Assembly (NCBI RefSeq): GCF_002156385.1
Contig: NZ_MVJM01000001.1
Coordinates: forward strand, 824,861 to 888,860
Direction: 5' to 3'
DNA from: Halalkalibacter urbisdiaboli
GTDB lineage: Bacteria; Bacillota; Bacilli; Bacillales; Bacillaceae_D
Length of the DNA: 64,000 nucleotides
The position numbers were made by a program, and so were the translations under genes. Below, piece after piece: positions 18,182-63,641 of the stretch; positions within the stretch are counted from its first letter, which is position 1, and the number at the start of each line of letters is the position of its first letter. Under the pieces are notes generated by a model. The model did no database searches and was not told the DNA's origin. It saw only the letters and a list, made by a program, of their open reading frames with translations.

Positions 18182-18198
18182 GGTGCGTTTCCCCCAAT

Positions 18199-19212: not shown

Positions 19213-19213
19213 G

Positions 19214-21337: not shown

Positions 21338-21379
21338 AAAAACCTATCCTTCCTGTTAATAGCGTTAAATCAATAAATG

Positions 21380-22303: not shown

Positions 22304-22315
22304 GTTGTTCCCTCC

Positions 22316-23299: not shown

Positions 23300-23337
23300 G
23301 CGCTTTCCCTCCTGTTCTACACCTTTAAACCTTTTTT

Positions 23338-23373
23338 AAAAAAGAGGAGGCGTGACCATCACATCCCCCTCTT
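23338..23373 (-). terminator. Partial terminator between binding-protein and permease genes
   Basis: On the minus strand AAGAGGGGG (23365-23373) pairs with CCTCCTCTT (23342-23350) around a 14-base loop and runs into about six T residues. Its place after a solute-binding-protein gene is typical of incomplete termination that tunes subunit ratios. Confidence 0.7.
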
Positions 23374-23394
23374 AACCTTTAACTGACCTTTTTT

Positions 23395-25062: not shown

Positions 25063-25080
25063 TTTACGTCCCCCCCTATA

Positions 25081-25118
25081 TTTAATCGCTTTCATTCTTT
25101 GAAAGCACTTTCATTATA
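25081..25118 (-). promoter_or_regulatory. Xylan operon promoter -10 and two cre-like sites
   Basis: Minus-strand TATAAT (25113-25118) is a good -10; the -35 (TCATGA) is weak, consistent with activator dependence on the YesN-type regulator. TGAAAGTGCTTTCA (25100-25113) is a perfect palindrome matching cre at 13 of 14 positions, and TGAAAGCGATTAAA (25081-25094) also matches at 13 of 14. Both lie at or just after the transcription start. Confidence 0.65.
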
Positions 25119-45511: not shown

Positions 45512-48055
45512 CTACAAGTTTATAAAATTAGCCATTGATTGAACAGAAAGTTTCGGTTGACGGGTAGCAGTAAATGGTTTTACACCGTGAGAATCTCTTG
45601 CTAAGAAATGTACTTTTTTCGGAATACCTGGAATGATATCGAAGTAGTTATCAGTAAAAATCCCTTCAATATCGGTATCAAGCCACACATTTTTAGCCAA
45701 AACATCCGTTTCAAATACGAATTCCGTGTATTCACCTTGTTGTATTTCCTGTACTGAAATCGTTGGCACTGAAAGCAAAATGTCCTTTAGCGAACTAAAA
45801 TAGTGCTCCTTGCTATCAATTACTTCACCTTGTTCCGTTAAAGTTACATAAAGGACAATGTTATTTGGCGTTTGCTCTCGAAGTAGCTCCTTTGTAGAAA
45901 ATGATGCAACAAGCTGACTTGAGTTCGCCTTAACATCTATTTGCTGTTCTTTAGAGAAATGCTGTTCGCCATTGAAATCAAGTACTTGGACATGTAGCGT
46001 TCCTTGAATTGGTTCAAGTACATCCGTTATTGCGTAAATTTCTGTTGAATCAGAAGTAGCTGTAATCGATAATGACTTATCTTTGTAAGATTTCTTCGTG
46101 TAATATTGAAGTGCCTTCCATCTTCCATAATAGTCCATGCTTGACCAAGATGCTACTGGCCAGCAATCGTTCATTTGCCAATATAGCGTTCCCATACAAT
46201 AAGGTTTATTTCTTCGATGTGCCTCAATCGCAACCTTAATTCCTTCAGCCTGAAGAATTTGACTCATATATAAAAATGCCGGGAAGTCTTTAGGTTCCTT
46301 TAAATACATATCCATATAGTCTTTAATTAATTGATTTCCACGACCATTTTTTTGATGCCATAGCATCACTTCAGATTCTAGTTCCATTTCCTTCTTATCC
46401 GCAAACAATCGAACCGTTTTTTCTTCAGGGAATGATTGAAAGCCATATTCACTCATAAATCTTCCTACATGATTCGTATATTCCTCAAACGGCTTTAATC
46501 CATGCCAAACATCCCAGTAGTGGATATCGCCAGTTGCCGAGTTTGAGTTTGAATGCTGACTCTTATCCCCTGTTATTTCAGCCATCGGTGAGGAAGGCCA
46601 GTATTCTGCACCTGGTGCATGTTTCGTAACCTCGTTAGGAAGAATATCATGAAAGATCTTTTCATAATCACTCCACATTTTCTCACGTATTTCTGGCGTA
46701 TACTGTTGCTTCCAGCCCCAGCCTGCGTCTTCATCATAATGAGCCCATGCTGCATCAATTTCATTATTTCCACACCATAAAACGATACTTGGATGATTTC
46801 TAAGACGCTTAATATTCTGTTCAGCTTCATATTTTACATTTTCTAAAAAAGCTTCATCCCCAGGATACATACTGCATGCAAACATAAAGTCCTGCCAAAC
46901 AAGAATCCCATATTCATCACATAGCTCATAAAATTCATCGTACTCGTATATTCCCCCACCCCAAACTCGAAGCATGTTCATGTTTGATTCAACAGCACTT
47001 GCAATTTCATGCCTGTAACGCTCATATGACACTTCTGTTTGAAAGCTATCGTTCGGAATATGGTTTGCCCCTTTAATAAACACTGGAACACCATTTAATT
47101 CAAAGTAAAAGGTCTTACCTTGTTCGTCTTTTTCCTTTACTACCCTTACCGTTCTAAGACCTGTTCGTACTTTTTTTTCACTGTGTACTCGACTATTTTT
47201 GATAAGTTCAGCTTTACAAGTATACGTATGCTGCTCACCTAACCCTCTACACCACCAAAGTTTAGGGTTTAGGATTTTCACATCAACCTCAATCTGATTA
47301 ATCCCTTTTTGAAGTTCGACCTCTCTCACGATCTCCTGCTCGCCAATAGTTAATTTAATCGTTTCCTGACCTATATCTGCAGCCTTTATTTCTACGACTG
47401 CCGTTACTTCGGCATATTCAGAGGAAAGCTGATTTTGCTTAATAAAAAGAGATTCTATATGATAGTCGGACCATCCCTCTAGTTTCACCTTTTTCCAAAT
47501 TCCACTTGTTACAAAACGCGGTCCCCAATCCCAACCATAATGATAAGGGGCTTTACGCGCGAAAATACTAACCTTCTTATCACCAAGACCACCATCTTCT
47601 GAATGATCATTTGTAGCTGGGAGAGGATATCCTAATTTCTCAAGCTTTGGTAAATCCTCATTAATCGGTGATCGAAACACAACCTTTAAATGATTGTTTT
47701 CTAGCTTAAGTAAGTCACGAACATCTCGTTTCCACGTTCTAAACATGTTGTCTGCTGAAAGAATCAATTTATTATTTAAATAGACATCAGCATACGTATC
47801 CAGACCTTCAAATATTAAATCTGCATGAGAAAAGAGGAGAAATTCTTCCGTTACATTAAATGTCGTTTCATACTCCCAATCCTTCTTATCTATCCATTGT
47901 AGCTCACGCTCATTCGTCCCCTCAAAAGGAGCTACTATTTTTCCATTCGATAGTAAATCCGTATGAACACAGCCAGGAACTTTAGCTGTCATCCATTCCT
48001 TATCTTCTTTAGCTTTAAACTTCCAATCTTCCAAATACAAAAAGTTCTGTTCCAT
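45512..48055 (-). CDS. Beta-mannosidase, GH2
   Basis: 847 residues, the size of GH2 mannosidases, without signal peptide. Domain order: N-terminal jelly roll (KVPGCVHTDLLSNG, IFARKAPYHYGWDWGPR), Ig-like domain, then the TIM barrel with MLRVWGGGIYEYDEFYELCDE. The acid/base is Glu432 (WCGNNEIDAAW) and the nucleophile Glu536 (FMSEYGFQSFPE). It removes mannose from beta-1,4-mannooligosaccharides in the cytoplasm. The upstream AGGAGAG site fits ATG 48055. It stands alone beside a LacI regulator and the wreck of a GH26 mannanase gene, so substrate supply now depends on genes elsewhere. Confidence 0.95.
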   Translation of the reverse strand: MEQNFLYLEDWKFKAKEDKEWMTAKVPGCVHTDLLSNGKIVAPFEGTNERELQWIDKKDWEYETTFNVTEEFLLFSHADLIFEGLDTYADVYLNNKLILSADNMFRTWKRDVRDLLKLENNHLKVVFRSPINEDLPKLEKLGYPLPATNDHSEDGGLGDKKVSIFARKAPYHYGWDWGPRFVTSGIWKKVKLEGWSDYHIESLFIKQNQLSSEYAEVTAVVEIKAADIGQETIKLTIGEQEIVREVELQKGINQIEVDVKILNPKLWWCRGLGEQHTYTCKAELIKNSRVHSEKKVRTGLRTVRVVKEKDEQGKTFYFELNGVPVFIKGANHIPNDSFQTEVSYERYRHEIASAVESNMNMLRVWGGGIYEYDEFYELCDEYGILVWQDFMFACSMYPGDEAFLENVKYEAEQNIKRLRNHPSIVLWCGNNEIDAAWAHYDEDAGWGWKQQYTPEIREKMWSDYEKIFHDILPNEVTKHAPGAEYWPSSPMAEITGDKSQHSNSNSATGDIHYWDVWHGLKPFEEYTNHVGRFMSEYGFQSFPEEKTVRLFADKKEMELESEVMLWHQKNGRGNQLIKDYMDMYLKEPKDFPAFLYMSQILQAEGIKVAIEAHRRNKPYCMGTLYWQMNDCWPVASWSSMDYYGRWKALQYYTKKSYKDKSLSITATSDSTEIYAITDVLEPIQGTLHVQVLDFNGEQHFSKEQQIDVKANSSQLVASFSTKELLREQTPNNIVLYVTLTEQGEVIDSKEHYFSSLKDILLSVPTISVQEIQQGEYTEFVFETDVLAKNVWLDTDIEGIFTDNYFDIIPGIPKKVHFLARDSHGVKPFTATRQPKLSVQSMANFINL

Positions 48056-48106
48056 ATTTACTCTCCTTCTCCCGCTTTAGAATAAGATGCTTCACTTTAG
48101 TTATTT

Positions 48107-48140
48107 TTGTTATTTTATTGTTATTAAAATAATATAACAA
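48107..48140. promoter_or_regulatory. Dyad upstream of the beta-mannosidase gene
   Basis: TTGTTATTTTATT (48107-48119) and AATAATATAACAA (48128-48140) form an inverted repeat with one mismatch and an 8-bp centre, 52 bp before the mannosidase start. It is a candidate operator for the nearby LacI-type protein, although it lacks the central CG pair typical of that family. Confidence 0.4.
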
Positions 48141-48240
48141 AATCATGTTTTTGTAAATTGTTTTTACTTAATTAAACAGAGTTTATTAGTTAAAAACATA
48201 CTTTAAAAACTTTAATACCTGAGCTAACAAGACGTTAGAA

Positions 48241-48287
48241 AGGGGATGTCCAAAAGGTTCATTTTTAACCTTTTGGGACATCCCCCT
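48241..48287. terminator. Repeat-type hairpin after the GH26/binding-protein fossil
   Basis: AGGGGATGTCCAAAAGGTT (48241-48259) pairs with AACCTTTTGGGACATCCCCC (48267-48286). It belongs to the same hairpin class as 6836, 34512 and 35551 and once ended the gene whose tail survives just upstream on the minus strand. Confidence 0.8.
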
Positions 48288-48299
48288 TATTTCTTATAA

Positions 48300-48648
48300 T
48301 TATTGAACAACGCGAGCTCTACCCTCAGCCCATTTTTTATTTAAATCTTCCATAATTTCATCGTATGTCATTGATACATTTCCAATTCCAGCTAGACCCT
48401 ACTCGATTCCCGCTTTCTTGTAAAGTTAACCCTTCATCTGTTGCATGCTGTTGACCGAATAACACCTGTTGACCACTGACATCCTGTAAAAACGCAAATA
48501 GTTCTTTCGTATACTTTGAAGCATTCGGATCGGCCATCTTAAGCTCGACTTCAGCAGCAGAAGTACTTATAGGATCAGTAAAAGATACAGCTGGAAATAC
48601 TAGTAATATTGCTAAAAAACATATAAAACACTTCTTTAACCTGTTCAT
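48300..48648 (-). pseudogene. Fossil: GH26 mannanase 5' end joined to a probable ABC binding-protein 3' end
   Basis: From ATG 48648 (ribosome site AAAGGAGGG) the frame encodes a signal peptide (MNRLKKCFICFLAILLVFP) and the start of a GH26 beta-mannanase domain: ELFAFLQDVSGQQVLFGQQH then ATDEGLTLQESGNRVGS. Homology stops near 48395 and this frame ends at 48358. From about 48395 down, a different frame reads LAGIGNVSMTYDEIMEDLNK, KWAEGRARVVQ and stops at 48300. That looks like the C-terminus of a family-1 solute-binding protein, though I cannot prove the family. The simplest explanation is a deletion of more than one kilobase that removed the mannanase active site and the rest of a transporter. 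The piece is not functional. Confidence 0.8.
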
Positions 48649-48723
48649 TATGAACCCTCCTTTTCTTTGAAAACGCATCCATAAAATAACTGGTTTCACT
48701 CCAATCTGATTAAATTTTCCCTT

Positions 48724-48750
48724 TGGAAGCGCTTTGATAAATTCAGTATA
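48724..48750 (-). promoter_or_regulatory. Promoter and cre-like site of the former mannanase gene
   Basis: The plus-strand sequence TGGAAGCGCTTTGA (48724-48737) matches cre at 12 of 14 positions, and minus-strand TATACT (48745-48750) is a plausible -10 just upstream of it. The control region survives although the gene is broken. Confidence 0.5.
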
Positions 48751-48867
48751 CCTGATTTAGGTAAAAATTAAATATAGATTAGTTTATGTAATATTTATTT
48801 TAAAGTTTACGATTACTTAATAAATTGTGTAATCTGTTTAAATCTAGTGAGCCATTTATCTTCACAT

Positions 48868-48897
48868 AAAAAAACCACCTGAATACCGTTCAGATGG
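48868..48897 (-). terminator. Terminator of the LacI regulator gene
   Basis: Minus-strand CCATCTGAA (48889-48897) pairs with TTCAGGTGG (48875-48883), one G-T pair, five-base loop, followed by seven T residues. Confidence 0.88.
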
Positions 48898-48913
48898 CTG
48901 AAATAATTTTTTT

Positions 48914-49933
48914 TTATTTTTCGTTGTTTACTTGAATTTGTTTAACTGAACCACGATGAATAATCTCACCTTTAATTAATACTCGTCCATAATGTTTTTT
49001 ACTATTTTTTATTTTTTCAATAATAAACTTTACAGCTACTTTTGACATTTCTTCAATATCCACTTGTACTGTTGTCATTGGAGGGTTAGAAAGTGTTGAA
49101 TAAATATCATTATCAAATCCTACAACCGAACAATCGTCTGGTACAGAGTAACCCATGCTTTGTAGCTTTCGTATTAATTCGTAGCCAATTTGGTCGTTAT
49201 TGCAAACAAAGGCTGTCGGTAGCCGTTCTGGAATCTCTAGTTCAATGAATTTCCCACGTTCATCCCGGTCACTAATAATGTATTCTTGATCTAAAGATAT
49301 TCTGTGCTCTAATAACGATTTATAAAAACCTAAGAAGCGATCCTGTATACTGCTTGTTGAATAAATATTCCCAACAAAGGCAATATCTCGATGTCCACAG
49401 TTTATTAAGTAATTGGTTAACTCATAAACTCCATAAAAGTTATCCGTTACAATTGAGTCAATATCGGTCGAATCCGTGTAAAAATCTAAGAAAACTTTAG
49501 GAATTTCATTTTCTGTTAACAAATTGATATATTCATTACTAACCTGTCCTAAAATAATAAAGCCATCTACCTTATTCTCATAATACGTTCTTGGCAGATT
49601 AAGTTGCTTCTCATCCGTCTCAGATAAGATTTGAAGGATCCCATAATAGTGATACTGCTCTAACATCTTCGAGATATGCTGATGAAACTTCAGATAAAAG
49701 GATTGTGCATCCCCTGTAAAGCGCTCAGGAATAATTATACCAATATTATAAGAAATGCCTTCCTTCATTGATTTAGCTGCCGTGTTGAAGCGATACCCCA
49801 TTTCTTTGGCAACTTCTTTAATTTTTTCTTTTAATTCGATGCTCACGCCTTCTTTATCATTCAAAGCTTTAGAAACTGTTACACTACTAACCCCAAGTTT
49901 ATCTGCTATATCTCGCATCGTTACATTTTTCAA
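48914..49933 (-). CDS. LacI/GalR family transcriptional regulator
   Basis: About 339 residues. The N-terminal helix-turn-helix MRDIADKLGVSSVTVSKALNDKEGVS is followed by the hinge helix TAAKSMKEGISYNIGIIIP and a periplasmic-binding-like core (PTAFVCNNDQIGYELIRKL, CSVVGFDNDIYSTLSNPPMTTVQVDI). It probably represses sugar genes until an inducer binds; its position suggests the mannan genes beside it. The likely start is TTG 49933 (MKNVTMRDIADKLG) after GTGGGTGGG, rather than the ATG at 49957, whose extra eight residues do not belong to the family. Confidence 0.9.
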   Translation of the reverse strand: MKNVTMRDIADKLGVSSVTVSKALNDKEGVSIELKEKIKEVAKEMGYRFNTAAKSMKEGISYNIGIIIPERFTGDAQSFYLKFHQHISKMLEQYHYYGILQILSETDEKQLNLPRTYYENKVDGFIILGQVSNEYINLLTENEIPKVFLDFYTDSTDIDSIVTDNFYGVYELTNYLINCGHRDIAFVGNIYSTSSIQDRFLGFYKSLLEHRISLDQEYIISDRDERGKFIELEIPERLPTAFVCNNDQIGYELIRKLQSMGYSVPDDCSVVGFDNDIYSTLSNPPMTTVQVDIEEMSKVAVKFIIEKIKNSKKHYGRVLIKGEIIHRGSVKQIQVNNEK

Positions 49934-50167
49934 GTAACCCACCCACTCGCTTTTCATTATTCAAGCTGTTCTTCTATAATTAAATTTAACTATCATTATG
50001 ACCAATTATATCCACAAATAATCTTAAACAGCCCTATTTGACTAAATCATTGTGAAATATTTTTCATTATTACGTTAATATTAGAATTTGCTAAAACGAT
50101 TGTCAATAAACAATGGCAATTAAACCACTTCTATTGCTATAACGAGCCTAAATTATTTAGGTCATAG

Positions 50168-50202
50168 AAAAAACGGTAGCTATTCTAACATTTCGCTACC
50201 GT
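50168..50202 (-). terminator. Terminator of the seven-gene glycosidase operon
   Basis: Minus-strand ACGGTAGC (50195-50202) pairs with GCTACCGT (50173-50180) and runs into TTTTTTC. It lies 24 bp after the last gene of the operon. Between it and the LacI gene (49934-50167) the DNA is AT-rich and I see no gene. Confidence 0.85.
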
Positions 50203-50225: not shown

Positions 50226-52277
50226 CTACAAAATCTTCTTAAGCCCTTCCCATTTCACATTCCAACTACCATCCGTTGGAAAAAGTGAGTAATCGGTCTC
50301 CTTCCCTTGCCAGCCACAAGCCATCATCGCTACTGCCGTTAGCAGCCCACCATTACCAGGTAGATAACTAGTTAACCCTTGACGTTGATAGTTATGACCA
50401 TTTTGTAAATAAGTATTTTTCGTTGCATCCATTAAGAGAAATTCTACAGCTAACTCTGGTTCATTTAACCTAGCTGCTGTCATTGCACACATTGGAAAAT
50501 CCCATCCCCAGGCACTTTCCCAATCCCATTCCGCTTTTACTTTTCGTAATGTTTGCCTCATAATGGTTTCATCTATCAATGTCCCCGGCAATAACCCTAA
50601 AGCCCCCACCATAGAAGGATGATCATGATTATACAGTGTAAAGGTATCTAAGCAATTCTCATGGGCCAAATACACACCTTGCTCATGCCGAGGCTTCGCT
50701 ATCCCTTGAGCTACCTCTAGCCACTTCTGTGGAATTGGTTCATTTAGACGTTTTGCCCATTCACTCGCAATTTCAAGACCATATTTCCAATATTCCAGCT
50801 CATAAGGCGGATTTAAACTTTCCTCTGGCTTGTGACATTCCTGTGCCGGAATTAAAGGAGGTCCTAACATATATTCTTTTCTTTCTTGATTCCAAACCGC
50901 GTAAGAAGCCATAAACGTTGCAGACTGAAACACCATTTCTTTAAATTTCATCAAGAACTCCTCATTTGGCTCAGAAGTGTAGCAAAGTTCGGCTAACATA
51001 ATCGGATGTGGTTGCTGCCAAATTAATACAGGAGCAATAGTAGAAGGACTTTGTTCCCCATCGTGTCCGACCATTTTCGGCCAACGTGCCCCTTCATATC
51101 CTTGAGAAGCTGCTAAATCCTTTGCCTTAGGTAAGATTGAATTGTACCAGTCCAGACTCTTTTGCAAAAGCTTAGTCCTATTCCAAATCGGAAAATGTGC
51201 AGCATGCCACCAATGCATTTCCAAATGAAATTTTCCGAACCAGCTATTATACATTAAGCCAGTTTCTTGTGGCGGAACAGAGCCACTGCAATGAATAGCT
51301 GTTAAAAATTGTGATAAAACGACTCTCCGTTCTAGTTCATGTGCTCTCACATCTCTACTTTCCGAAAAATCAATTGCAGCACCATCTATCCAAAACGTAT
51401 TCCAAAACGTACAACTATCTTGCAGGATGTCTTCATACTTACTAGGAATTGGTTCATCTGCTGCAAATGAAATAGAAAAAGTTAAATGCTCGCCACTGCT
51501 CGGTATGAGTGTATACTCATGTGTTGCGGTTTCCACGATATCGCCATTATCCCAAGTTAATGCTACATTATACTGATCCTCATCAAGGGTTCGGCGTAAT
51601 GTTATTGAATTACTCGATTTCCTAACAGTTGACGTCTTATGACGAAATGGAAATTGCCAATTCAGGTCTGTTGCCTCATCCCACTCGTCTGAAACGATGT
51701 CAGGGTTCGGAAATGATAATTGAACGTGTAAACGTCCTTGTTCTATTAAAGGGGAAACGACTTTCACTCCAATCTCATCTTTGTTCGAATGACAAGCTGT
51801 GATTACAAACACAGGCTTACCTTCTAATGAAAAATGACTAGATACATAGCCCTCCCATAAATTAAGCGTTTGTTTAATATCTTGAATATCTACTATTTCA
51901 GCATTTTGTCCATTTTCTTTACGTAATCGAAAGGAGAGTTGACCTAGTTGTAATCGGTGTGGATTCTGTCTAAGCCAATGATAAGCCTCTGATTTTTCTT
52001 TAGGATGAAGTGGATAGTCGATTGCCCTTCCATAGGTGTCAAGCGATTGTAATGTTATATCATTAAAATCAAATAAATTTCGCTTTTTCGTAGAATGCCA
52101 GCCCCAATTAGATTGTGTTCCTAAAGGTACATCATAGGCTTTAGGAAATGTCTGTAATCCAGTAACATCTACAGTAAAAGCAAACTCTCCATTCCCAACA
52201 CTTAGTGGCGAAAGTGGATCAACCTCCGTTAGTCTAGGAAAATGTCGATGAACAAGCTTCCGTCTATCAATACTCAT
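50226..52277 (-). CDS. Unassigned (alpha/alpha)6-type glycoside hydrolase
   Basis: 683 residues, no signal peptide. Residues 1-290 look like a beta-sandwich (DPLSPLSVGNGEFAFTVDVTG, LHVQLSFPNP). The rest reads like an (alpha/alpha)6 barrel: FHLEMHWWHAAHFPIWNR, GYEGARWPKMVGHDGEQSPS, PLIPAQECHKPEESLNPPYE, WDWESAWGWDFPMCAMTAARL and SYLPGNGGLLTAVAMM. This recalls the GH65/GH95 superfamily (sandwich plus six-hairpin barrel, PxxE-type acid), but I cannot place it in a CAZy family. GAGGAG precedes ATG 52277. It ends an operon with GH43, an ABC importer and YesMN, so it should act on an imported oligosaccharide in the cytoplasm. Exact bond and sugar unknown. Confidence 0.7.
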   Translation of the reverse strand: MSIDRRKLVHRHFPRLTEVDPLSPLSVGNGEFAFTVDVTGLQTFPKAYDVPLGTQSNWGWHSTKKRNLFDFNDITLQSLDTYGRAIDYPLHPKEKSEAYHWLRQNPHRLQLGQLSFRLRKENGQNAEIVDIQDIKQTLNLWEGYVSSHFSLEGKPVFVITACHSNKDEIGVKVVSPLIEQGRLHVQLSFPNPDIVSDEWDEATDLNWQFPFRHKTSTVRKSSNSITLRRTLDEDQYNVALTWDNGDIVETATHEYTLIPSSGEHLTFSISFAADEPIPSKYEDILQDSCTFWNTFWIDGAAIDFSESRDVRAHELERRVVLSQFLTAIHCSGSVPPQETGLMYNSWFGKFHLEMHWWHAAHFPIWNRTKLLQKSLDWYNSILPKAKDLAASQGYEGARWPKMVGHDGEQSPSTIAPVLIWQQPHPIMLAELCYTSEPNEEFLMKFKEMVFQSATFMASYAVWNQERKEYMLGPPLIPAQECHKPEESLNPPYELEYWKYGLEIASEWAKRLNEPIPQKWLEVAQGIAKPRHEQGVYLAHENCLDTFTLYNHDHPSMVGALGLLPGTLIDETIMRQTLRKVKAEWDWESAWGWDFPMCAMTAARLNEPELAVEFLLMDATKNTYLQNGHNYQRQGLTSYLPGNGGLLTAVAMMACGWQGKETDYSLFPTDGSWNVKWEGLKKIL

Positions 52278-52304
52278 TGCTTCACTCCTCACATATTGAT
52301 ACAG

Positions 52305-53189
52305 TTACTCTGTAATCAATTTTCCGTTCATTTCAGACAGTGTTATAAAAATCGGCCGCTCTAACGGTGTTTTGTTTGGGGTATGCAACGTTAAAATTAA
52401 TTGATTAGCGAACGTTCTAAATATCATCCCGTGTCCACCATCATTTAAGTAGAGCGGATGCTCTTCATGTACCCACGGTCCTGTGACATTTCCAGAGACC
52501 GACCTTGAAATCCCTTGGGCATATACATTGTTTACGAAGCTAGCCCAAAGCATAACGAGTTCATCATTCATCGTTTTAAACATGAACGTTCCATCCGTAA
52601 CATAGTTCTCTGAATCTGGAAATCTCTTATGTTTGAACGAAGTCGGCCATGGTGCATCAGATGCTCGAAATAACACGACCGGTTCACCAGTTGCTTTCTT
52701 TAAATCCGTTGATAATCTTTGGGCACAAACCTCTCCATCGCTAACTTGAACCCATTCATGACAAAAGACGATCCAAGGGTCCCCTTCCTCATCAACATAT
52801 AATGTCCCATCAAGAGAGAACCACTCTCTTGGAGTCACAGGCTCTGGACTGTGAGGAACGAAGGGTCCTGTAACTTTATCTGAAACTAATATTCCTGTCC
52901 CTCGTTTTTGATTATCTTTCCGCAAAAATGTAGCAAACATATAATATTTCCCTTGATAGTAATGGACTTCGGGCGCCCAAAAATTTTCGTCTGAGTAAAA
53001 GCTTTCTTCTGGACGAAACACGGGAAAGGGTCCATCCCACGTTTCTAAATCTGTCCCCACGTACATATCAAAGCCGGTACCTGGTCCCCAAATATTTTTA
53101 TCGGTACTACCAAACAGATAGTATCTTCCTTCTGCTTCATCAACATAGACAAAGGGATCTCTTATTTGGATTTGGTCGTTCGTTACCAT
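52305..53189 (-). CDS. GH43 family glycosidase (intracellular)
   Basis: About 294 residues, a single five-bladed beta-propeller without signal peptide. The general base Asp is in IQIRDPFVYVDE, the pKa-modulating Asp in FSLDGTLYVDEEGDPW, and the C-terminal GGHGMIFRTF supplies the propeller histidine. The position of the acid Glu (VTEGP in classical members) reads YVTDGTFMF, so an Asp stands there. GH43 enzymes release arabinofuranose or xylose from plant oligosaccharides. The likely start is ATG 53189 (MVTNDQIQIRDP) with AAAGGA upstream; ATG 53198 is possible. It lies 28 bp after the response regulator gene and 27 bp before the unassigned glycosidase. Confidence 0.87.
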   Translation of the reverse strand: MVTNDQIQIRDPFVYVDEAEGRYYLFGSTDKNIWGPGTGFDMYVGTDLETWDGPFPVFRPEESFYSDENFWAPEVHYYQGKYYMFATFLRKDNQKRGTGILVSDKVTGPFVPHSPEPVTPREWFSLDGTLYVDEEGDPWIVFCHEWVQVSDGEVCAQRLSTDLKKATGEPVVLFRASDAPWPTSFKHKRFPDSENYVTDGTFMFKTMNDELVMLWASFVNNVYAQGISRSVSGNVTGPWVHEEHPLYLNDGGHGMIFRTFANQLILTLHTPNKTPLERPIFITLSEMNGKLITE

Positions 53190-53217
53190 TCTCCGCATCC
53201 TTTCATAAGTTAATCTT

Positions 53218-54834
53218 TTAATAAAATTCTGAAGGACTCATACCTGTTACTGATTTGAAAACTTGACTGAAATAAGTTGAGTTTTGATATCCAACCATCT
53301 CACTCACTTCGTAAACCATATATTTCTTTTCCCTTAAACGCTCCTTTGCTTTCTCTATTCGAAAGCGATTCAAATACGTTACAAAGGTTTCACCAGTCAC
53401 CTTCTTAAATAATTGTGATAAATAGTTACGATTGACATATAACGTATCTGCTATTTCAGCTAACGTAATTTCTTGATCATAGTTTTCTTTTACGTAATCT
53501 TTCACAGCTACTATCAACTTGTGACTCTTTTTCCCATTTAACTCTTCTTTCGTTTGACCGACCCAAGTATCTATTCGCTCCCCCATCCAAGACGTTAATT
53601 CCCTTATCGTTCGCTGTGAATAAACCTTCGTTAATAGCTGTGACATATCTAGTGTTTCATTCATTAGTTGCTCTTTCGAGTGAGAGTTCATCAAAATAGC
53701 ATTTAGTGTACTTATACAAATGGTTTGAACGATATAGAGAGACATGTTTTTCTCTGTCTCAATAGTTTTAACAAAACATCCCCAAATGTTTACTAATCCT
53801 TCATAATCCTTTAGTAGAATAGCTTCATGAATGTCTTTTAACAGTTCAAAAGGATAATAAGAACATTCAACTTCACTTTGCTCTTGAACCTCCTCGAATG
53901 TATAAACACGATTAAATTCTTGATATTCCGCAGCTTCTAAAGCACGTTGACTCTCAAGATATGAATCGATAATTTCATGAACACCCGTTTTCATTCTTCC
54001 TATACCTACAACGATTGAAAGTTTTAAGAAAAAAAGAATCGTCCTCATTAACTCACTTGATAGTTCATAGCTTACGTCGCGTAAATGGCTCGTGTTTTCA
54101 TTTTCAAAAAAAACGAGTACAAATGTTGAATCCGAGTAATCGACAACGTGAATATCAACCTCGGAAAACCTCTCATGAGTTTCGATCATTTCTAAAATAA
54201 TATTTCCGGCACTAAATTTCATAAGCTGCCAGTCTCGTTCATGGGCCTTCGTTAAATATGGAGGTCGGATCACAGTAAGTGTACTTACAATAACATTTTG
54301 CTCTTTAGACAAATTAAGTAATGCTAACTTTTCACTAGGAATGTCAGAGGCTTTATACCTTGTATTAAGCAGTTCTCTTACTAGTGCATCCTTCGTATAA
54401 CGTAAGTACTCATTTCTTTGAGTTTCATAGTTCTTTATTAATGTTTTTTGCTTTTCCTGTATATCAATTTCTTGACTAATATCGAGTAAGACGGTCTCAA
54501 TTTCCTGGATAGGGGATGGCTTTAAAAAGAAATGCTTCACTCCATATCGAATCGCTTCTCTTGCATTCTCAAAGTGGTCATAGCCACTATGGATAACAAT
54601 ATGGATATCTGGAAATTCTTCATATAGTCGTTTAATTAATTCCAAACCAGTCATTTTCGGCATATAAATGTCTGTAATCAAAATATCTGGAGGACTTAAC
54701 CTAATCTTCTTTAACGCTTCAAGCCCATCACATGCCGTATCCTTAACGGTTAGATTTAATTTCCTCCATGGTACATGGTTGATAAGACCATTCCTTATTT
54801 CTTGGTCGTCATCAATGATTAATACTGACTTCAT
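53218..54834 (-). CDS. Response regulator, YesN type with AraC domain (second system)
   Basis: 538 residues. The receiver domain shows IIDDDQE, the phosphoacceptor in PPDILITDIYMPKMTG and HFFLKPS. A long middle region follows, and the C-terminal AraC DNA-binding domain contains ITLAEIADTLYVNRNYLSQLF and ends in MVGYQNSTYFSQVFKSVTGMSPSEFY. It overlaps the kinase gene by four bases (ATGA, 54831-54834), implying coupled translation. It probably activates its own operon in response to the sugar sensed by the kinase. It is about as long as the xylan regulator at 27071 but clearly divergent. Confidence 0.93.
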   Translation of the reverse strand: MKSVLIIDDDQEIRNGLINHVPWRKLNLTVKDTACDGLEALKKIRLSPPDILITDIYMPKMTGLELIKRLYEEFPDIHIVIHSGYDHFENAREAIRYGVKHFFLKPSPIQEIETVLLDISQEIDIQEKQKTLIKNYETQRNEYLRYTKDALVRELLNTRYKASDIPSEKLALLNLSKEQNVIVSTLTVIRPPYLTKAHERDWQLMKFSAGNIILEMIETHERFSEVDIHVVDYSDSTFVLVFFENENTSHLRDVSYELSSELMRTILFFLKLSIVVGIGRMKTGVHEIIDSYLESQRALEAAEYQEFNRVYTFEEVQEQSEVECSYYPFELLKDIHEAILLKDYEGLVNIWGCFVKTIETEKNMSLYIVQTICISTLNAILMNSHSKEQLMNETLDMSQLLTKVYSQRTIRELTSWMGERIDTWVGQTKEELNGKKSHKLIVAVKDYVKENYDQEITLAEIADTLYVNRNYLSQLFKKVTGETFVTYLNRFRIEKAKERLREKKYMVYEVSEMVGYQNSTYFSQVFKSVTGMSPSEFY

Positions 54835-56663
54835 GATTGACCTTCCCCCTTCGTACCATCAAACCACTTATGCTGTTTTTTAATCCAAACGTCTAGCTCT
54901 GCTTGCTCTTTAATAATTGGAAGAACAATGCGGACAGCAGTCCCTCCGTCTTGATGATTAAATAATTTAATTCCGTACGGATGTCCACAATACATCCAAA
55001 TTCTTTCTTGAACATTTTTTATACCAATCCCTTTAGAATCGTGCAAATTCCAATTTTCAGGTAATCCACATCCGAAATCAGTCACTGTAATTTCAAGACA
55101 GTCATTATTCGTTTCTTTTACGATTTTCGCAAAAATGATAATGCGGACAACCTTTTTAGACAGGTCAATATAGCCATGCTTCATACTATTTTCGATAAAT
55201 GGCTGTAAAATGATTTTTGGAACATATAAATCCTTGAGCGAAGCTGGTATTTTCACTTCATAGATAAACTCTTCCTTTAATCTCGCACGCTGAATATCAA
55301 CATAGCTTTTCGCATGCTCTAATTCGTCTCTTAGTAGAATAAATTGCCTGCCCCCACTTAAACTAATTCTTAACATCCTACTTAACTGATTGACCATATG
55401 ACTAATATCATCAGCACGGTGGTCCATTGCCTTCCACCGGATCATATCTAACGTATTGTATAGAAAGTGAGGCATTATTTGACTTTGCAAAGCGCGTATT
55501 TCAGCCTCTCTTCTGAAACCGTTTTCTTTTTTTAGATTGTTTAATGTTTCATTTAACTGATTTGTCATATGATTAAAATTATTAGCCAATGTATCATATT
55601 CTTCAATGTAATAAGGACCGACCTTTTTATCAAAGCGCCCTTTTTCTACATATTTCATTCCTGTGATCAGCTTTGAAATCGGTCCAGTAAATCGCTTCCC
55701 TACCCAATAAACGATAGGAACGGATAAAACTAATCCTAAAAGACCCATTAATAATATAGTAAAGCCGATTTTTCTAGTTTCTTGATATAAAGGGTCAACT
55801 GGTATTAATTGCACTAAGCTCCATTGCTCATAATTCGGTTCCGAAATTAATAGGAGAAAGAACTCATTCTCATGTTTAATTAATTCATGGTGATTAGAAT
55901 ACTGATTATAAGTTTCCGTTAGCATCATATACGGTTCTGAAGGTGCTGAGATCGTGATCTCATCTAATACTTGAAAACTTTCCGGAGAGTGGGTTTGAGC
56001 AATAATCTTTCTCCCTGTATTTAAAAGGATTAATGGTTCATCCGATTCTTTTAATAACTCTTTATTAGACATATAGTCAAAGAAAGTCTCTGCCAAAACA
56101 TTTACTTTTATATAGCCAACAGTCTGGCCACGTTGATTTAGGATTCGATGAACATAACTAATGAACTCCTGATTAGAAAATGCGGATTGATGTTTAGGAA
56201 CCCACCCATCATCCATCTTATTAAATAATTGTTTAAACCATCTTTCATTCTCAATGTTCTCTTTGGACTGAACGATTTTTCCAGGAATTTTAGGATAGTT
56301 CTCATAACGATCCGTATAAATATCAATGGAATGAATATATGTCTTTAAGCTTGTCACACCATTTACTAGCTGTGTTAATTCGCGCTGTTCAGCAATGGCT
56401 TCATAAGAGCTAGCAGGTTCATCCGAAAACATTTGAATGACGTTTCGATTTATCGCAATATACATCCCTGCCTCGCTTACACTTGTAATAAAGCCCGACA
56501 GCTTCTTTGCACTTTCATTTAACAGCGTTAGCCTCGCTTCACTGATTTCCTCCGACGTAAAATTAAAGAAATACTTATACGATACAAAGCTGAGGCCAGA
56601 TAAGAAAAGTCCGTTGACCATAACAAAGCTGATAACCATAATTGTGGTTAATTTTCTAAACAT
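54831..56663 (-). CDS. Sensor histidine kinase, YesM type (second system)
   Basis: 610 residues: span near 8-30, an extracellular sensor domain to about 290, span near 295-315, HAMP (ISKLITGMKYVEKGRFDKKVG), and the kinase core with SQIMPHFLYNTLDMIRW (phosphoacceptor His), PFIENSMKHGY (N-box) and DFGCGLPENW (G-box). ATG 56663 (MFRKLTTIM) has AGAAAGG nine bases upstream and is preferred over TTG 56684. It sits 48 bp after the permease genes and is coupled to the regulator gene. Having transporter, kinase and regulator in one operon suggests sensing of the imported sugar. Confidence 0.92.
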   Translation of the reverse strand: MFRKLTTIMVISFVMVNGLFLSGLSFVSYKYFFNFTSEEISEARLTLLNESAKKLSGFITSVSEAGMYIAINRNVIQMFSDEPASSYEAIAEQRELTQLVNGVTSLKTYIHSIDIYTDRYENYPKIPGKIVQSKENIENERWFKQLFNKMDDGWVPKHQSAFSNQEFISYVHRILNQRGQTVGYIKVNVLAETFFDYMSNKELLKESDEPLILLNTGRKIIAQTHSPESFQVLDEITISAPSEPYMMLTETYNQYSNHHELIKHENEFFLLLISEPNYEQWSLVQLIPVDPLYQETRKIGFTILLMGLLGLVLSVPIVYWVGKRFTGPISKLITGMKYVEKGRFDKKVGPYYIEEYDTLANNFNHMTNQLNETLNNLKKENGFRREAEIRALQSQIMPHFLYNTLDMIRWKAMDHRADDISHMVNQLSRMLRISLSGGRQFILLRDELEHAKSYVDIQRARLKEEFIYEVKIPASLKDLYVPKIILQPFIENSMKHGYIDLSKKVVRIIIFAKIVKETNNDCLEITVTDFGCGLPENWNLHDSKGIGIKNVQERIWMYCGHPYGIKLFNHQDGGTAVRIVLPIIKEQAELDVWIKKQHKWFDGTKGEGQS

Positions 56664-56711
56664 AGTAGATGGCCTTTCTATCAATATAGTTGTAGAAACG
56701 TTGCTAGCATT

Positions 56712-57554
56712 TTACCCTTTTAACCCTGTAGTAGCAATCCCTTCAACAATATACTTTTGGAAAATAAAGAAAACAGTTGTTATAGGCAATAACGATAGGA
56801 CAGACATCGCAAATACAGAGCCCCACGAGGAATCACCTTGCGAATCTAAAAATAAACGAAGTCCTAAAGGTACTGTAAATTTATCAACAGTATTTAAATA
56901 AAGAATTTGACTAAAAAAATCATCCCAAGTCCAAATAAAAGTAAAGATTGCGGTTGTTATCAAAACAGGTACGGCTAAAGGCATAATAATCCGAGCATAA
57001 ATTTGGATGATACCACAGCCATCCATTGTCGCGCTTTCATCTAATTCTCTTGGAATCCCACGGAAAAATTGAATCATTAAGAAAATGAAAAAGGCATCCG
57101 TTGCTAACAGCTTTGGGACAGTTAATGGAAGAATGGTGTTTATCCAATTTAACTGATGAAAGATTGTATACTGCGGAACTAATGTAACATGTGCCGGTAG
57201 CATAATCGTCATAAGCATACAGGCAAACCATAGTTTTTTTAGTGGGAATTTTAATCTAGCAAAAGCATAGGCTGCCATTGAACATGTAATCAAATTTGCT
57301 ATCACACTAATGGAGCTAATCATAAACGAATTTTTAAAAAAGGAACCAAATGTAATATCGCGTACAACGTTCCAACCCTTAGTATAGTTCTCAAACGTCA
57401 TCTCCTTTGGCCACAAGCCTGGAGATGAGAATATAAGATACTCTGGCTTTAAAGAACTTGAAATCATCCACAGCACTGGGTACAGCATGAGTATACCGCC
57501 GGAAATTATAAGTAAATGACTACTCACTTTTTTAAAGGTAGATTGCCGATTCAT
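56712..57554 (-). CDS. Sugar ABC transporter permease, MalG/LacG type
   Basis: 280 residues, six spans. The EAA loop ESATMDGCGIIQIYARIIMPLAVPVL and the end QKYIVEGIATTGLKG are typical of CUT1 MalG-type subunits. Its ATG shares one base with the stop of the partner permease (TAATG at 57554), so the two are translated together. It forms the channel for the unknown oligosaccharide of this operon; the ATPase must come from elsewhere (MsmX type). Confidence 0.94.
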   Translation of the reverse strand: MNRQSTFKKVSSHLLIISGGILMLYPVLWMISSSLKPEYLIFSSPGLWPKEMTFENYTKGWNVVRDITFGSFFKNSFMISSISVIANLITCSMAAYAFARLKFPLKKLWFACMLMTIMLPAHVTLVPQYTIFHQLNWINTILPLTVPKLLATDAFFIFLMIQFFRGIPRELDESATMDGCGIIQIYARIIMPLAVPVLITTAIFTFIWTWDDFFSQILYLNTVDKFTVPLGLRLFLDSQGDSSWGSVFAMSVLSLLPITTVFFIFQKYIVEGIATTGLKG

Positions 57555-58507
57555 TATAATTTCCCCCCGTCTTCATAGTAAACCCAGTACTTTGATGTCA
57601 CGAATAGAATAGCTGTCATCGTCCCTAACACGATGACAAGAACCCATGCCATTGCAGAAGCATACCCCATTTCAAAATGAGAAAATCCTTTCTGATACAA
57701 ATATAGGGTATAAAACAAGGTTGAATTTATCGGTCCGCCTGTCCCTTCACTAACAATATATGACGATGTAAACACTTGTATTGATTTAATTAATTCAATG
57801 ACTAAGTTGAAGAAAATAACCGGAGATAATAAAGGCAGTGTAATTTTGAAAAACCTTCTCATATTACTAGCCCCATCAACAGAAGCAGCCTCATATAACT
57901 CTGTTGGAATTTGTTTCAACCCCGCTAAAAAAATAACCATCGAAGCACCAAACTGCCATGTTGCTAAAATGATTAACGTATTTAGTGCATAGTCAGGATG
58001 AGATACCCAGCCCTTCCCAGCAATGTCGAAAAACGCTAATACTTGATTAACCAATCCATCAAACCCGAATAGATTTTTCCAGAGTAAGGCAATAGCCACG
58101 CTTCCGCCTAATAAAGATGGTAAATAATAAACCGTTCTATATATTCCGATCCCTCTCATTCCACGATTTAAAAGCAGAGCTACCAATAATGCAGCCACTA
58201 ATTGAGTGGGTACCGCAATAAAGACAAAGGTTAGTGTCACGTGAACCGCATCCCAAAAACGTTGGTCCGAAAACATTTGTTGATAATTTAATAGACCAAT
58301 CCATTTAGGTGGATTCATTAAATCAAAACGTGTAAATGATAAATATAACGAACTAATCATTGGCCCTAATACTAATCCAAAAAAACCAAATAGCCATGGC
58401 AGAAGAAACATATAGGCAATCACAACGTTTTTCTTCATTCTTTTCTCTTTGCTTTGACTAGGCTTTATTTCAAGCACGGTATTGCTTTTCTCCGTATAGT
58501 TATCCAC
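57554..58507 (-). CDS. Sugar ABC transporter permease, MalF/LacF type
   Basis: About 317 residues. An N-terminal cytoplasmic tail precedes six spans. LLPWLFGFFGLVLGPMISSLYLSF and the EAA loop EAASVDGASNMRRFFKITLPLLSPVI mark it as a MalF-type CUT1 permease. The start is probably GTG 58507 with GGAGGGG five bases upstream (GTG 58513 is the alternative). It follows the binding-protein gene across a hairpin and overlaps the next permease by one base. Confidence 0.93.
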   Translation of the reverse strand: MDNYTEKSNTVLEIKPSQSKEKRMKKNVVIAYMFLLPWLFGFFGLVLGPMISSLYLSFTRFDLMNPPKWIGLLNYQQMFSDQRFWDAVHVTLTFVFIAVPTQLVAALLVALLLNRGMRGIGIYRTVYYLPSLLGGSVAIALLWKNLFGFDGLVNQVLAFFDIAGKGWVSHPDYALNTLIILATWQFGASMVIFLAGLKQIPTELYEAASVDGASNMRRFFKITLPLLSPVIFFNLVIELIKSIQVFTSSYIVSEGTGGPINSTLFYTLYLYQKGFSHFEMGYASAMAWVLVIVLGTMTAILFVTSKYWVYYEDGGKL

Positions 58508-58568
58508 GTCCACCCCTCCTATTAAAGGTTAAAAAAGCCGGCATCATCATCTGATGATGATAAGAAAA

Positions 58569-58606
58569 GTGACTCACATTCACTTAAATAAGCAATCACG
58601 AGTCAC
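58569..58606 (-). terminator. Hairpin between binding-protein and permease genes (second system)
   Basis: GTGACTC (58569-58575) and GAGTCAC (58600-58606) close an imperfect stem; on the minus strand TTTTC follows. A second palindrome, ATCATCATC/GATGATGAT, lies at about 58541-58560. It is probably a partial terminator or stabiliser that raises binding-protein mRNA over permease mRNA. Confidence 0.55.
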
Positions 58607-58617
58607 TATTCTCATCC

Positions 58618-59931
58618 TTACTCGGAAAACTTTTCTATATTTTCTAGTAACTCTTTATAATAGGCTTCTGCTGCTTCATCAACAGTTGCTTGGTCGAAAT
58701 AAATTCTCTCACTTGTTTCTTTAAATAGTTGCGTATTTTCATTGTATCCTGGTAGATTTGGAATATAAGGAGCATCCGATGTACTACTTACCCAATCAAT
58801 GTAAGCAAAAATGGCCTGATCGATTTCATCTCCTGAATCAAGTAATGATGCTCTCACTTCCGAGTTCACTGGTGCACCTCTATCATTTCCTAAAATGGCC
58901 GTTGCTTCTAAATCATTAACAAAAAAGTCTAAAAACTTAGCTACTTCTTCCGGATGTTTCGTGTCTGCAGTTCCCGCTAAAAATTGACTCGGTCTTAAGC
59001 CAACACCATTTTTTCCAGTTTCACTATGATAAGGATTAATATATAAAACAAATTCGTCCTCACTTGCATTTGTGTAAGCTCCTAATTGATTGCTTGCAAT
59101 GGCCTCCATTGCCACAGTTCGTTGGACAATAAGCGACTGTTCTGGTGTTTGCGATGCGGATACTTGAATCTCTGCAAGAGCTGCTCCACCACTTTCTCTT
59201 AACTCCTTCCACATTTGAAACCAATCCGCTGTATCTTGAGCTTCAAACCCTACTTCTCCATCAAGGTACGTATACTTATCCTGCTGTGCTAAAAATGTTC
59301 CAAAGCCATCCTCTTGGAAATCGCTCGTTCCATAAATACCATCTAAATTAGCAGAAAGCTGATTCGCTATTTCTTTAAAGTCCTCCCAAGTCCACTCTTC
59401 ACTTGGTAAAGGGACATTGGCTTCTTCAAATAATGTTTTATTAAGAAGCACCCCTCTAGCGTTAGTCCCAAGTGTGACACCATAGAACTTGCCATCAAAG
59501 GTTGCAGCGTCAATCATACTTTGATCGTGTTTACTTAAATCTAGTGAATTCCCGACATACTCATCTAATGGTAAGACTACACCACGATTGACAAAATCAT
59601 TTAAGTTTCCACCGTACTGAACAATATCAGGGGCATTCCCTGCTGCAATTTGAGTAGATAGTTTATCAAAATATCCATCAAACCCGGAATATTCCGCTAC
59701 AATTTTGACATTTGGATTCCGTTCCTCATACAATTCAATGACTTTTAAGGTCCGATCATGGCGTTCCTGCCCACCCCACCAGGCCATGCGTAATTCGATG
59801 TTTTCTTCATTCTCACTTTGAGGTTCTTGACTGGTATCCGATTTTGCTCCTGTTTCCTCCGTTTTTGAACTACATCCAACAAACATAAACATAAGAATAA
59901 GAGTACAAAGGGCTAAAAATGATTTTTTCAT
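58618..59931 (-). CDS. Sugar-binding lipoprotein, family 1 (CUT1)
   Basis: 437 residues. Lipoprotein signal MKKSFLALCTLILMFMFVGC with lipobox FVGC and a Ser/Glu-rich linker. The mature part has the family-1 features ELRMAWWGGQERHDRTLKVI, NVKIVAEYSGFDGYFDKLST and APDIVQYGG. It is the external receptor of the importer encoded next. GAGAGGAG precedes ATG 59931. It is the first gene of the seven-gene operon ending at 50226. Substrate unknown; the GH43 enzyme suggests a plant cell-wall oligosaccharide. Confidence 0.94.
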   Translation of the reverse strand: MKKSFLALCTLILMFMFVGCSSKTEETGAKSDTSQEPQSENEENIELRMAWWGGQERHDRTLKVIELYEERNPNVKIVAEYSGFDGYFDKLSTQIAAGNAPDIVQYGGNLNDFVNRGVVLPLDEYVGNSLDLSKHDQSMIDAATFDGKFYGVTLGTNARGVLLNKTLFEEANVPLPSEEWTWEDFKEIANQLSANLDGIYGTSDFQEDGFGTFLAQQDKYTYLDGEVGFEAQDTADWFQMWKELRESGGAALAEIQVSASQTPEQSLIVQRTVAMEAIASNQLGAYTNASEDEFVLYINPYHSETGKNGVGLRPSQFLAGTADTKHPEEVAKFLDFFVNDLEATAILGNDRGAPVNSEVRASLLDSGDEIDQAIFAYIDWVSSTSDAPYIPNLPGYNENTQLFKETSERIYFDQATVDEAAEAYYKELLENIEKFSE

Positions 59932-61529: not shown

Positions 61530-62002
61530 TTATCCTACCCCGAATTGATAATGCTTGTATTGATGATGCAATAAAATCCGATGAAGTAGACGATCATATC
61601 GTCGAAAACCAAAAGCATTTCGCTTATTAACTTTAGTTTGATTGTTTAGCCCTTCAATAAACCCATTATTTATTCCAAAGGCAAAGCTATTCAATACTTC
61701 CTTTTGCCAATTCTTCAACGTTTGAATCGCTCGATGAAATTCCTTAACTCTAATCGCCTCGACCTTTTGATAGAAAGCGTAGAGTCCCTTTTCCACCATC
61801 CGACCCTGCTTCCCTAATTCCTTTGAATGAGAGAACCGTTCTCGAAATGACTCTTTTAACTGATACGCTTCCCGCAATTCTGAAGACATCCTTAAGCACC
61901 GTTCGAGATACCATTCCTGTTTTGTACTTAGCTTCTTTCTAGGCGAACACTCTCTAAAGGTCAGTAGATATACCGATCAATGGCGATACATTGCGGAAGT
62001 TC
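61530..62002 (-). pseudogene. Broken ISL3-family transposase
   Basis: The C-terminal third of an ISL3 transposase is clear: LREAYQLKESFRERF, RAIQTLKNWQKEVLNSFAFG and NNGFIEGLNNQTKVNKRNAF with RRYDRLLHRILLHHQYK (the last catalytic Glu is in FIEG). Upstream, LPQCIAIDRYI near 61985-62000 resembles the first catalytic Asp region (IAIDE), but the sequence between is too short and frame-shifted. Internal deletion and loss of the N-terminus make it inactive. No terminal inverted repeats were found. It abuts the 3' end of the GH43 gene. Confidence 0.8.
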
Positions 62003-62147: not shown

Positions 62148-63641
62148 TTAATCCTTCTCCTCTGAGGGTCCGGCACTTGGCATATTATTGCTTAAAATAA
62201 ACGACTTAAAATCGATCTTACCAGACCCTCTATAAGTGAAATATAATGCTTGTTTCCCATTTGGCATAGTTACACGCGTTTGAAAATACGTATAGCCTTT
62301 GGTTTTCGTAATTTTTATGCTGGCAATCGGTTCTGAATGGAGTTCGGTTGACACTAGCATTTCACCAACACCTGTTGCGTTAACTTGTACAGCCATTCCC
62401 TTTACATCCTTGATCATAAAATATTTAAAACCTGCAACAGCTCCATCTTTCATGTTGGCGATATATTGTGTCGGATGATGTTCTCTGTCCTTACCCGTTT
62501 GTGTAAAATAAGGATGGTTCTTAAATGTTATATTCCCGAAATATGTACCATATCTTCCTGCCCCTTTTTTTGACATGAGGTGGCATGCAATTCGTGCCTC
62601 ATACTCACCGTTTCCGGATAAAGGACCATTATTCAGCCCGCTACTCGTCATTTCCACCTGTGGGATTGAACCATCCTCTTTTATTTCAATAGGTTCCGCA
62701 AGTGCTTGCCTGGAGAAATGATGTCTGTTCGTTTGTCTGTGGTAGAACACATACCATTGCCCCTTAATACAAACAATACTGCCATGGTTATTCCCTATAT
62801 AATTATAAGCCTTGTTATCTTCTGAAAAACCGTTAATAAATAAATCGCCATTGCTTATAATCGTTCCACCATACTCGAATCCCCCAATAGGACTTTTGCT
62901 CGTTGCATAACATAATTCATGTCCATTTATCGATGAGTAGATAAAGTAATACGTATTTTCTATTTTTCTTATGGAGCTGGCTTCAAAAAATTCATGTCCT
63001 TCAAGACCAGTCCCTTCCGCTTCCCCTACTTTAGGAAAAATCAGTTTGGGCTCACCTTTCACTGTCTTCATATCAGGTTCTAACTCGATGACGTATCCAC
63101 CACTAAAGGTTCTCCTTTTAAAGTTAGTAAGAATGCTAGGAACTCCTTTCTTTGGTGCAAACCCTGAATACAAGTAGACCTTTTTATCATCGTCAACGAA
63201 GACGCCTGGATCAAACAAATACGGGTCCCCTTTTTTATTCCATAAAAGTTCTCCATTTGGTAGACTGATATAACCATAAAACTCAAATGCTCCATTCGGC
63301 TTATCACAAACAGCAACGGCCATGATACTACGGAAGCCAAGTGTATAATACAAATAATACCTTCCATCTACTCCTTTCGTGACATCTGGAGCAAACATTT
63401 GATAAAGCCCTAATCGATTTTTAGGATCCTGAACCTTTCGATAGATGACCCCTTCGTATGTCCAATCCGTTAAATCATCAATTGGGGCAGACCAACAAAC
63501 ATAATCATTCATACAAAATAGCTTTCCGTTAAACCTGTCATGAGAACCGTAGACATATAATCGTTCTCCAAATACGTAAGGTTCACCATCCGGAATATAC
63601 TCATAGCTTGGTAAAAATGGATTAAAAGCTTGTTTTTTCAT
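62148..63641 (-). CDS. GH43 glycosidase with C-terminal CBM6-like domain
   Basis: 497 residues, no signal peptide. Residues 1-320 form the beta-propeller: base Asp18 (YIPDGEPYVFGERLYVYGSHD), second Asp in YLFDPGVFVDDD, acid Glu in GHEFFEASSIRKIENTYYF. Residues about 350-485 look like a beta-sandwich carbohydrate-binding domain of CBM6 type (GYTYFQTRVTMPNGKQALYF). Such two-domain GH43 enzymes are usually arabinofuranosidases or xylosidases. ATG 63641 has only a weak upstream G-rich site. It is a single gene beside a transposase remnant. The substrate is probably arabinoxylan- or arabinan-derived; this is inference. Confidence 0.88.
   Translation of the reverse strand: MKKQAFNPFLPSYEYIPDGEPYVFGERLYVYGSHDRFNGKLFCMNDYVCWSAPIDDLTDWTYEGVIYRKVQDPKNRLGLYQMFAPDVTKGVDGRYYLYYTLGFRSIMAVAVCDKPNGAFEFYGYISLPNGELLWNKKGDPYLFDPGVFVDDDKKVYLYSGFAPKKGVPSILTNFKRRTFSGGYVIELEPDMKTVKGEPKLIFPKVGEAEGTGLEGHEFFEASSIRKIENTYYFIYSSINGHELCYATSKSPIGGFEYGGTIISNGDLFINGFSEDNKAYNYIGNNHGSIVCIKGQWYVFYHRQTNRHHFSRQALAEPIEIKEDGSIPQVEMTSSGLNNGPLSGNGEYEARIACHLMSKKGAGRYGTYFGNITFKNHPYFTQTGKDREHHPTQYIANMKDGAVAGFKYFMIKDVKGMAVQVNATGVGEMLVSTELHSEPIASIKITKTKGYTYFQTRVTMPNGKQALYFTYRGSGKIDFKSFILSNNMPSAGPSEEKD

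Follow-up and report, generated by a model that had tools for sequence, protein, structure and literature searches.

The closest described relatives of the enzyme considered here belong to glycoside hydrolase families 65, 95, and 139. Most bacterial GH65 enzymes are phosphorylases. GH95 enzymes possess a catalytic set formed by the asparagine pair N421/N423 and an Asp766 base system, and GH139 is inverting, with an active site containing a Q411/N412 pair and E561. In the GH65 kojibiose hydrolase FjGH65A (7fe3), E472 is the acid and E616 the base, and W343, D344, K538, and Q539 hold the glucose (PMC8626586). GH95 and GH139 both use an asparagine base (PMC12282258). On the level of gene clusters, the neighbors of this gene's relatives recall the rhamnogalacturonan system Yes/Yte/Lpl of Bacillus subtilis, as they include a YesS-like regulator, a YteR-like GH105, and an LplD-like protein, whereas the operon described here carries YesM/YesN together with a GH43. 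To our knowledge, the enzyme has no B. subtilis counterpart.

In the window, the whole 64,000-nucleotide stretch of Halalkalibacter urbisdiaboli DNA analyzed here, open reading frames and Pfam matches bear out the seven packed minus-strand genes (50226-59931), products included, that an earlier note had described. They encode an SBP_bac_1 extracellular solute-binding lipoprotein (58618-59931; PF01547, E 4.1e-29; signal with Cys at VGCSS), two ABC permeases of the UgpA/MalF type (57554-58513) and the MalG/UgpE type (56712-57554), both matching PF00528 and NCBIfam models, a YesM-type sensor histidine kinase with HAMP, His_kinase, and HATPase domains (54831-56684; PF06580, E 7.6e-26), a YesN-type response regulator with an AraC HTH (53218-54834; Pfam Response_reg and HTH_18), a GH43 enzyme (52305-53198; PF04616, E 2.1e-34), and an enzyme of 683 amino acids (50226-52277), placed by profiles, an AlphaFold model, and an alignment in an unnamed family of the GH65/GH95 superfamily. 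Neighboring genes overlap or are separated by gaps of at most about 105 bp. The last gene starts with an ATG at 52277, preceded by a good ribosome site, GAGGAGTG. Just past its stop codon, at 50173-50202 on the minus strand, a perfect 8-bp inverted repeat forms a terminator-like hairpin, ACGGTAGC...GCTACCGT, followed by TTTTTT; repeat and T run were matched in 0 of 100 shuffles. Since this hairpin closes the operon, the LacI gene at 48914-49957 probably belongs to another unit. It lies downstream with a GH2 beta-mannosidase-like protein (45512-49957 for both, probably a unit of their own) and a cre-like site at 48667-48681 within the same region. Upstream of the operon, a fragment of an ISL3-type transposase (61530-61889) and a second, distinct GH43 protein of 497 amino acids (62148-63641) were found.

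The operon itself is of an ordinary type, with an enzyme of an unnamed family at its end. Neither an ABC ATPase nor a secreted polysaccharide-cleaving enzyme is encoded among its seven genes, so that "self-contained," as the system had been called, is too strong a term. Like other operons of this kind, it would need a shared ATPase, as in MsmX-type systems. The GH43 protein has no signal peptide at its N-terminus, and its closest solved chain is the "endo-arabinase" 5c0p (E 1.6e-71).

The 683-aa protein passed the cut-off of no Pfam or NCBIfam model, in agreement with the earlier view that it lies outside nameable families. The GH65 model PF03632 scored 15.3 bits (cut-off 27), the NCBIfam kojibiose hydrolase model NF053734 scored 13.9 bits (cut-off 800), the Pfam GH95 catalytic domain did not match, and a PHROGs search returned nothing useful. 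Profiles were needed because a single-sequence PDB search yielded nothing up to E 1. Relatives were detected at no fewer than 586 loci in public GTDB genomes, in Bacillota, Acidobacteriota, Bacteroidota, and others, the best 80 of these being 49 to 67% identical to the 683-aa enzyme. In Halalkalibacter hemicellulosilyticus, the copy (L063, G026:C92:112763-114813) is split over two reading frames, by either a frameshift or a sequencing error. Among 38 diverse family members, weak Pfam matches to GH65 occurred in 14 (best E 3e-5) and to GH95 in 6 (best E 3.7e-6), and NCBIfam matches were equally weak (best E 3.1e-7, to NF053734). A profile of 77 sequences retrieved a GH65 kojibiose phosphorylase (E 1.2e-6) and human PGGHG (E 4e-4) from the PDB, and profile-profile comparison gave E 3.5e-15 with GH65, including kojibiose hydrolase, and E 3.9e-7 with GH95. 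Neither a named family nor a mention of this gene in rhamnogalacturonan systems was found in the open-access literature searched. We use "new" or "unnamed" family relative to Pfam and NCBIfam, and in the sense that no close relative has been solved.

The AlphaFold model of the enzyme (77 sequences; pLDDT 94.9, pTM 0.94) consists of a beta-sandwich and an (alpha/alpha)6 part, the layout that had been anticipated from the sequence. Ranked against the families in the VIA-align list, its closest fold is FjGH65A (Z 40.2 over 587 residues, rmsd 2.9), with which it shares the whole two-domain architecture at 15% identity; most other GH65 chains follow at Z 30-34, and GH95 and GH139 at Z 24-28. GH95 reaches 24-27, and the GH139 2-O-methyl-alpha-L-fucosidase BT0984, known from a pectin (RG-II) context, reaches 27.6 at 14% identity. 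GH15, GH78, GH116, and GH94 matched on the fold level at lower Z, and none of the four was among the Pfam matches of the 38 members. Profile homology and the fold ranking make the enzyme a branch of its own within the GH65/GH95 superfamily, and in fold it is nearest to GH65. A distant branch had been suggested in the earlier note, partly from the motif PAQE. This motif carries E480, which is invariant (77/77) and aligns near the GH65 general acid E472, a local gap making the alignment ambiguous; the general acid of FjGH65A and other GH65 enzymes thus seems to be retained.

The remaining catalytic apparatus seems to differ from that of the known families. The region of the FjGH65A base E616 aligns to NGHN.Q, which contains no acidic residue, and the K538/Q539 pair aligns to a variable residue and D552. 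Judging from the alignment, neither the base of GH65 hydrolases nor the Lys-Gln pair that binds glucose appears to be retained, and W343, D344, K538, and Q539 as a group do not appear conserved either; the operon context differs from that of FjGH65A as well. Unlike in GH95, the motif NxNxQM reads KxHLEM, placing K349 and H351 at the asparagine pair, with H351 at the Asn-base position of GH95 and GH139 (motif alignment), and D766 corresponds to Pro640. Invariant acidic residues in the barrel are E338, E353, E493, and D593, any of which could serve as the general base. At the place of the +1-subsite residues of FjGH65A, the family has the invariant R398 and K401; a uronate carboxylate may be bound at +1 near these two residues.

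Genomic context points to pectin. In Bacilli, two operon types carry the family gene, and the possibility that the family is tied to one of them was rejected. Type A, the type found in the window, comprises the solute-binding protein, permeases, YesM, YesN, and GH43, and sometimes a GH4 protein closest to LplD alpha-galacturonidase (E 1.2e-157). Type B combines a solute-binding protein, permeases, a Gfo/Idh oxidoreductase, a long GH105-like protein, and a YesS-like regulator with the family enzyme, a PL22-like propeller resembling oligogalacturonate lyase, a GH105 resembling YteR-type structures (E 5e-112), and GH95. In a tree, the types are clustered, yet each requires two changes and neither forms a single clade. 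Among 56 Bacilli loci, GH105 was a neighbor in 28, GH95 in 27, PL22-like proteins in 20, and GH43 in 10. PL11 occurred within three genes in 5 of the 24 loci outside the Bacilli set, including loci of Flavobacterium and of one MAG each from Acidobacteriota and Bacillota, and another Acidobacteriota MAG has GH95 and a PL22-like gene beside the family gene. Within the retrieved stretches, GH105, PL22-like, PL11, and GH4 genes were all absent from 19 of the 56 Bacilli loci and 16 of the 24 others. Other neighbors include a DUF4450 protein with weak six-hairpin glycosidase matches (1205 aa, L080:6120-9734), which adjoins the family gene at four loci in Flavobacterium (PL11 is present as well at three of these), and a URO-D-type, corrinoid methyltransferase-like gene (L075:431-1615) in Calditrichota and Actinomycetota MAGs.

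The content of the window's own genome and of the carrier genomes was counted by family searches for PL11, GH88/105, GH78, and GH106. The family gene is present in 4 of 36 sampled genomes of the window's taxonomic family, where PL11 occurs in 4/4 carriers versus 13/32 non-carriers (one-sided exact p 0.04, the relatives not being independent), and GH88/105 matches number 6 to 13 per carrier versus at most 4 per non-carrier. Seven further Bacilli carriers all have PL11 and GH88/105 matches, bringing the count to 11 of 11 carrier genomes tested, and in five carriers of one genus (g87), GH105 immediately adjoins the family gene. This co-occurrence is partly a general effect, carriers being rich in CAZymes, and both this richness and relatedness weaken the carrier/non-carrier figures. 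Together with the GH105, PL22-like, GH95, PL11, and LplD-type neighbors, it sharpens the plant cell wall substrate previously thought likely to rhamnogalacturonan or pectin. Computed fold, homology, conserved acid, operon, and genomic context lead us to propose, with a probability of roughly 0.6, that the enzyme is a glycosidase of a new family acting on rhamnogalacturonan/pectin oligosaccharides.

According to this proposal, the solute-binding protein and the two permeases would import a rhamnogalacturonan-derived oligosaccharide, presumably with energy from a shared ATPase whose gene lies elsewhere, YesM/YesN would control the operon, and the GH43 and the 683-aa enzyme, which is predicted to be cytosolic, would finish the imported oligosaccharide in the cytosol. 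The operon can thus be read as a unit of import, sensing, and degradation, as suggested before, whereas the analysis gave no support for its restriction to one oligosaccharide. Signal peptides are absent from the Bacilli members; many members from other phyla, Gram-negative ones included, have Sec, Tat, or lipoprotein starts, because of which the reaction probably takes place outside the cytoplasm there.

As to the specific activity, our leading candidate, put forward tentatively and at less than even odds, is an alpha-L-rhamnosidase on Rha-alpha-1,4-GalA ends. GH105 would first remove the unsaturated uronate, and the 683-aa enzyme would then take off the terminal rhamnose. The main reason is an indirect one: in the window's genome, family searches gave nine matches to PL11 and eight to GH88/105 but detected no GH78 or GH106 rhamnosidase, so that no enzyme is assigned to rhamnose removal there. 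The position of R398 and K401 in the GH65 +1 region is as expected if a uronate carboxylate is bound there. We infer the bond cut, an exo action, and a probably inverting mechanism. The enzyme does not just stand in for GH78, since a genome of the same genus (G001) contains two family copies and nine GH78 matches; for all carriers, replacement of GH78/GH106 was rejected, as G001, G005, which likewise has two copies, G026, and others also possess GH78. Moreover, no rhamnosidase might be needed where exo-lyases release disaccharides.

The partner GH43, with its likeness to an "endo-arabinase," could point to arabinan side chains. One possibility, unlikely in our view but worth weighing, is that the enzyme removes a side-chain sugar (of the L-arabinose, L-fucose, or L-galactose type, or a galactosyl residue) from rhamnogalacturonan or arabinan oligosaccharides beside GH43 or GH95 instead of cutting the Rha-GalA backbone. 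Both are frequent partners in the Bacilli loci, and the next-closest folds, GH95 and GH139, act on L-fucose, L-galactose, or 2-O-methyl-L-fucose (PMC12282258). However, the closest fold is GH65, K349 and H351 stand in place of the GH95 asparagine pair in the motif alignment, and GH95, often a separate gene adjoining this one, would be duplicated in function. An alpha-galacturonidase (GalA-alpha-1,2-Rha) or other uronidase alternating with a rhamnosidase would fit the identical pectin pathway context, and the invariant basic barrel residues R398, K401, and H424 could bind a carboxylate at -1, but such an enzyme would be redundant with the LplD-type GH4 alpha-galacturonidase in the same cluster of a few relatives, and we consider this reading improbable. 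A glycoside phosphorylase would suit the GH65 fold and the cytosolic location in Bacilli, where phosphorolysis would save ATP; this is very improbable, given that the phosphorylase Ser-Ser phosphate region aligns to WGWD with the invariant Asp593 and that E338 is close to where the phosphate-binding Lys would be, the alignment being uncertain there, and given that the export signals of many Gram-negative members are unsuited to a phosphorylase. That the operon serves xylan is highly unlikely even though GH43 is common in xylan systems and a minus-strand xylan-use cluster (16118-25095; genes for GH67, GH10, GH52, and a solute-binding protein, interspersed with two others) lies about 25-40 kb away, since no GH67, GH10, or GH52 was found among the typed recurrent neighbor clusters of relatives, whose common neighbors are pectin-type genes.

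Returning to the rhamnosidase, we speculate, and regard as rather doubtful in its entirety, that a new family of the GH65/GH95 superfamily, distributed over several phyla, consists of inverting (alpha/alpha)6 alpha-L-rhamnosidases that fill the GH78/GH106 gap by means of a base unlike those of GH65, GH95, and GH139 and carry out an uncatalogued step of rhamnogalacturonan use. Neither Pfam nor NCBIfam names this family of at least several hundred members, which come from cultured as well as uncultured bacteria, yet its neighbors point clearly to pectin. Once its reaction is assigned, the rhamnogalacturonan pathways of Bacilli, Acidobacteriota, and Flavobacteria would be complete, and CAZyme annotation would gain a new family with an active site bridging the GH65 and GH95 designs.
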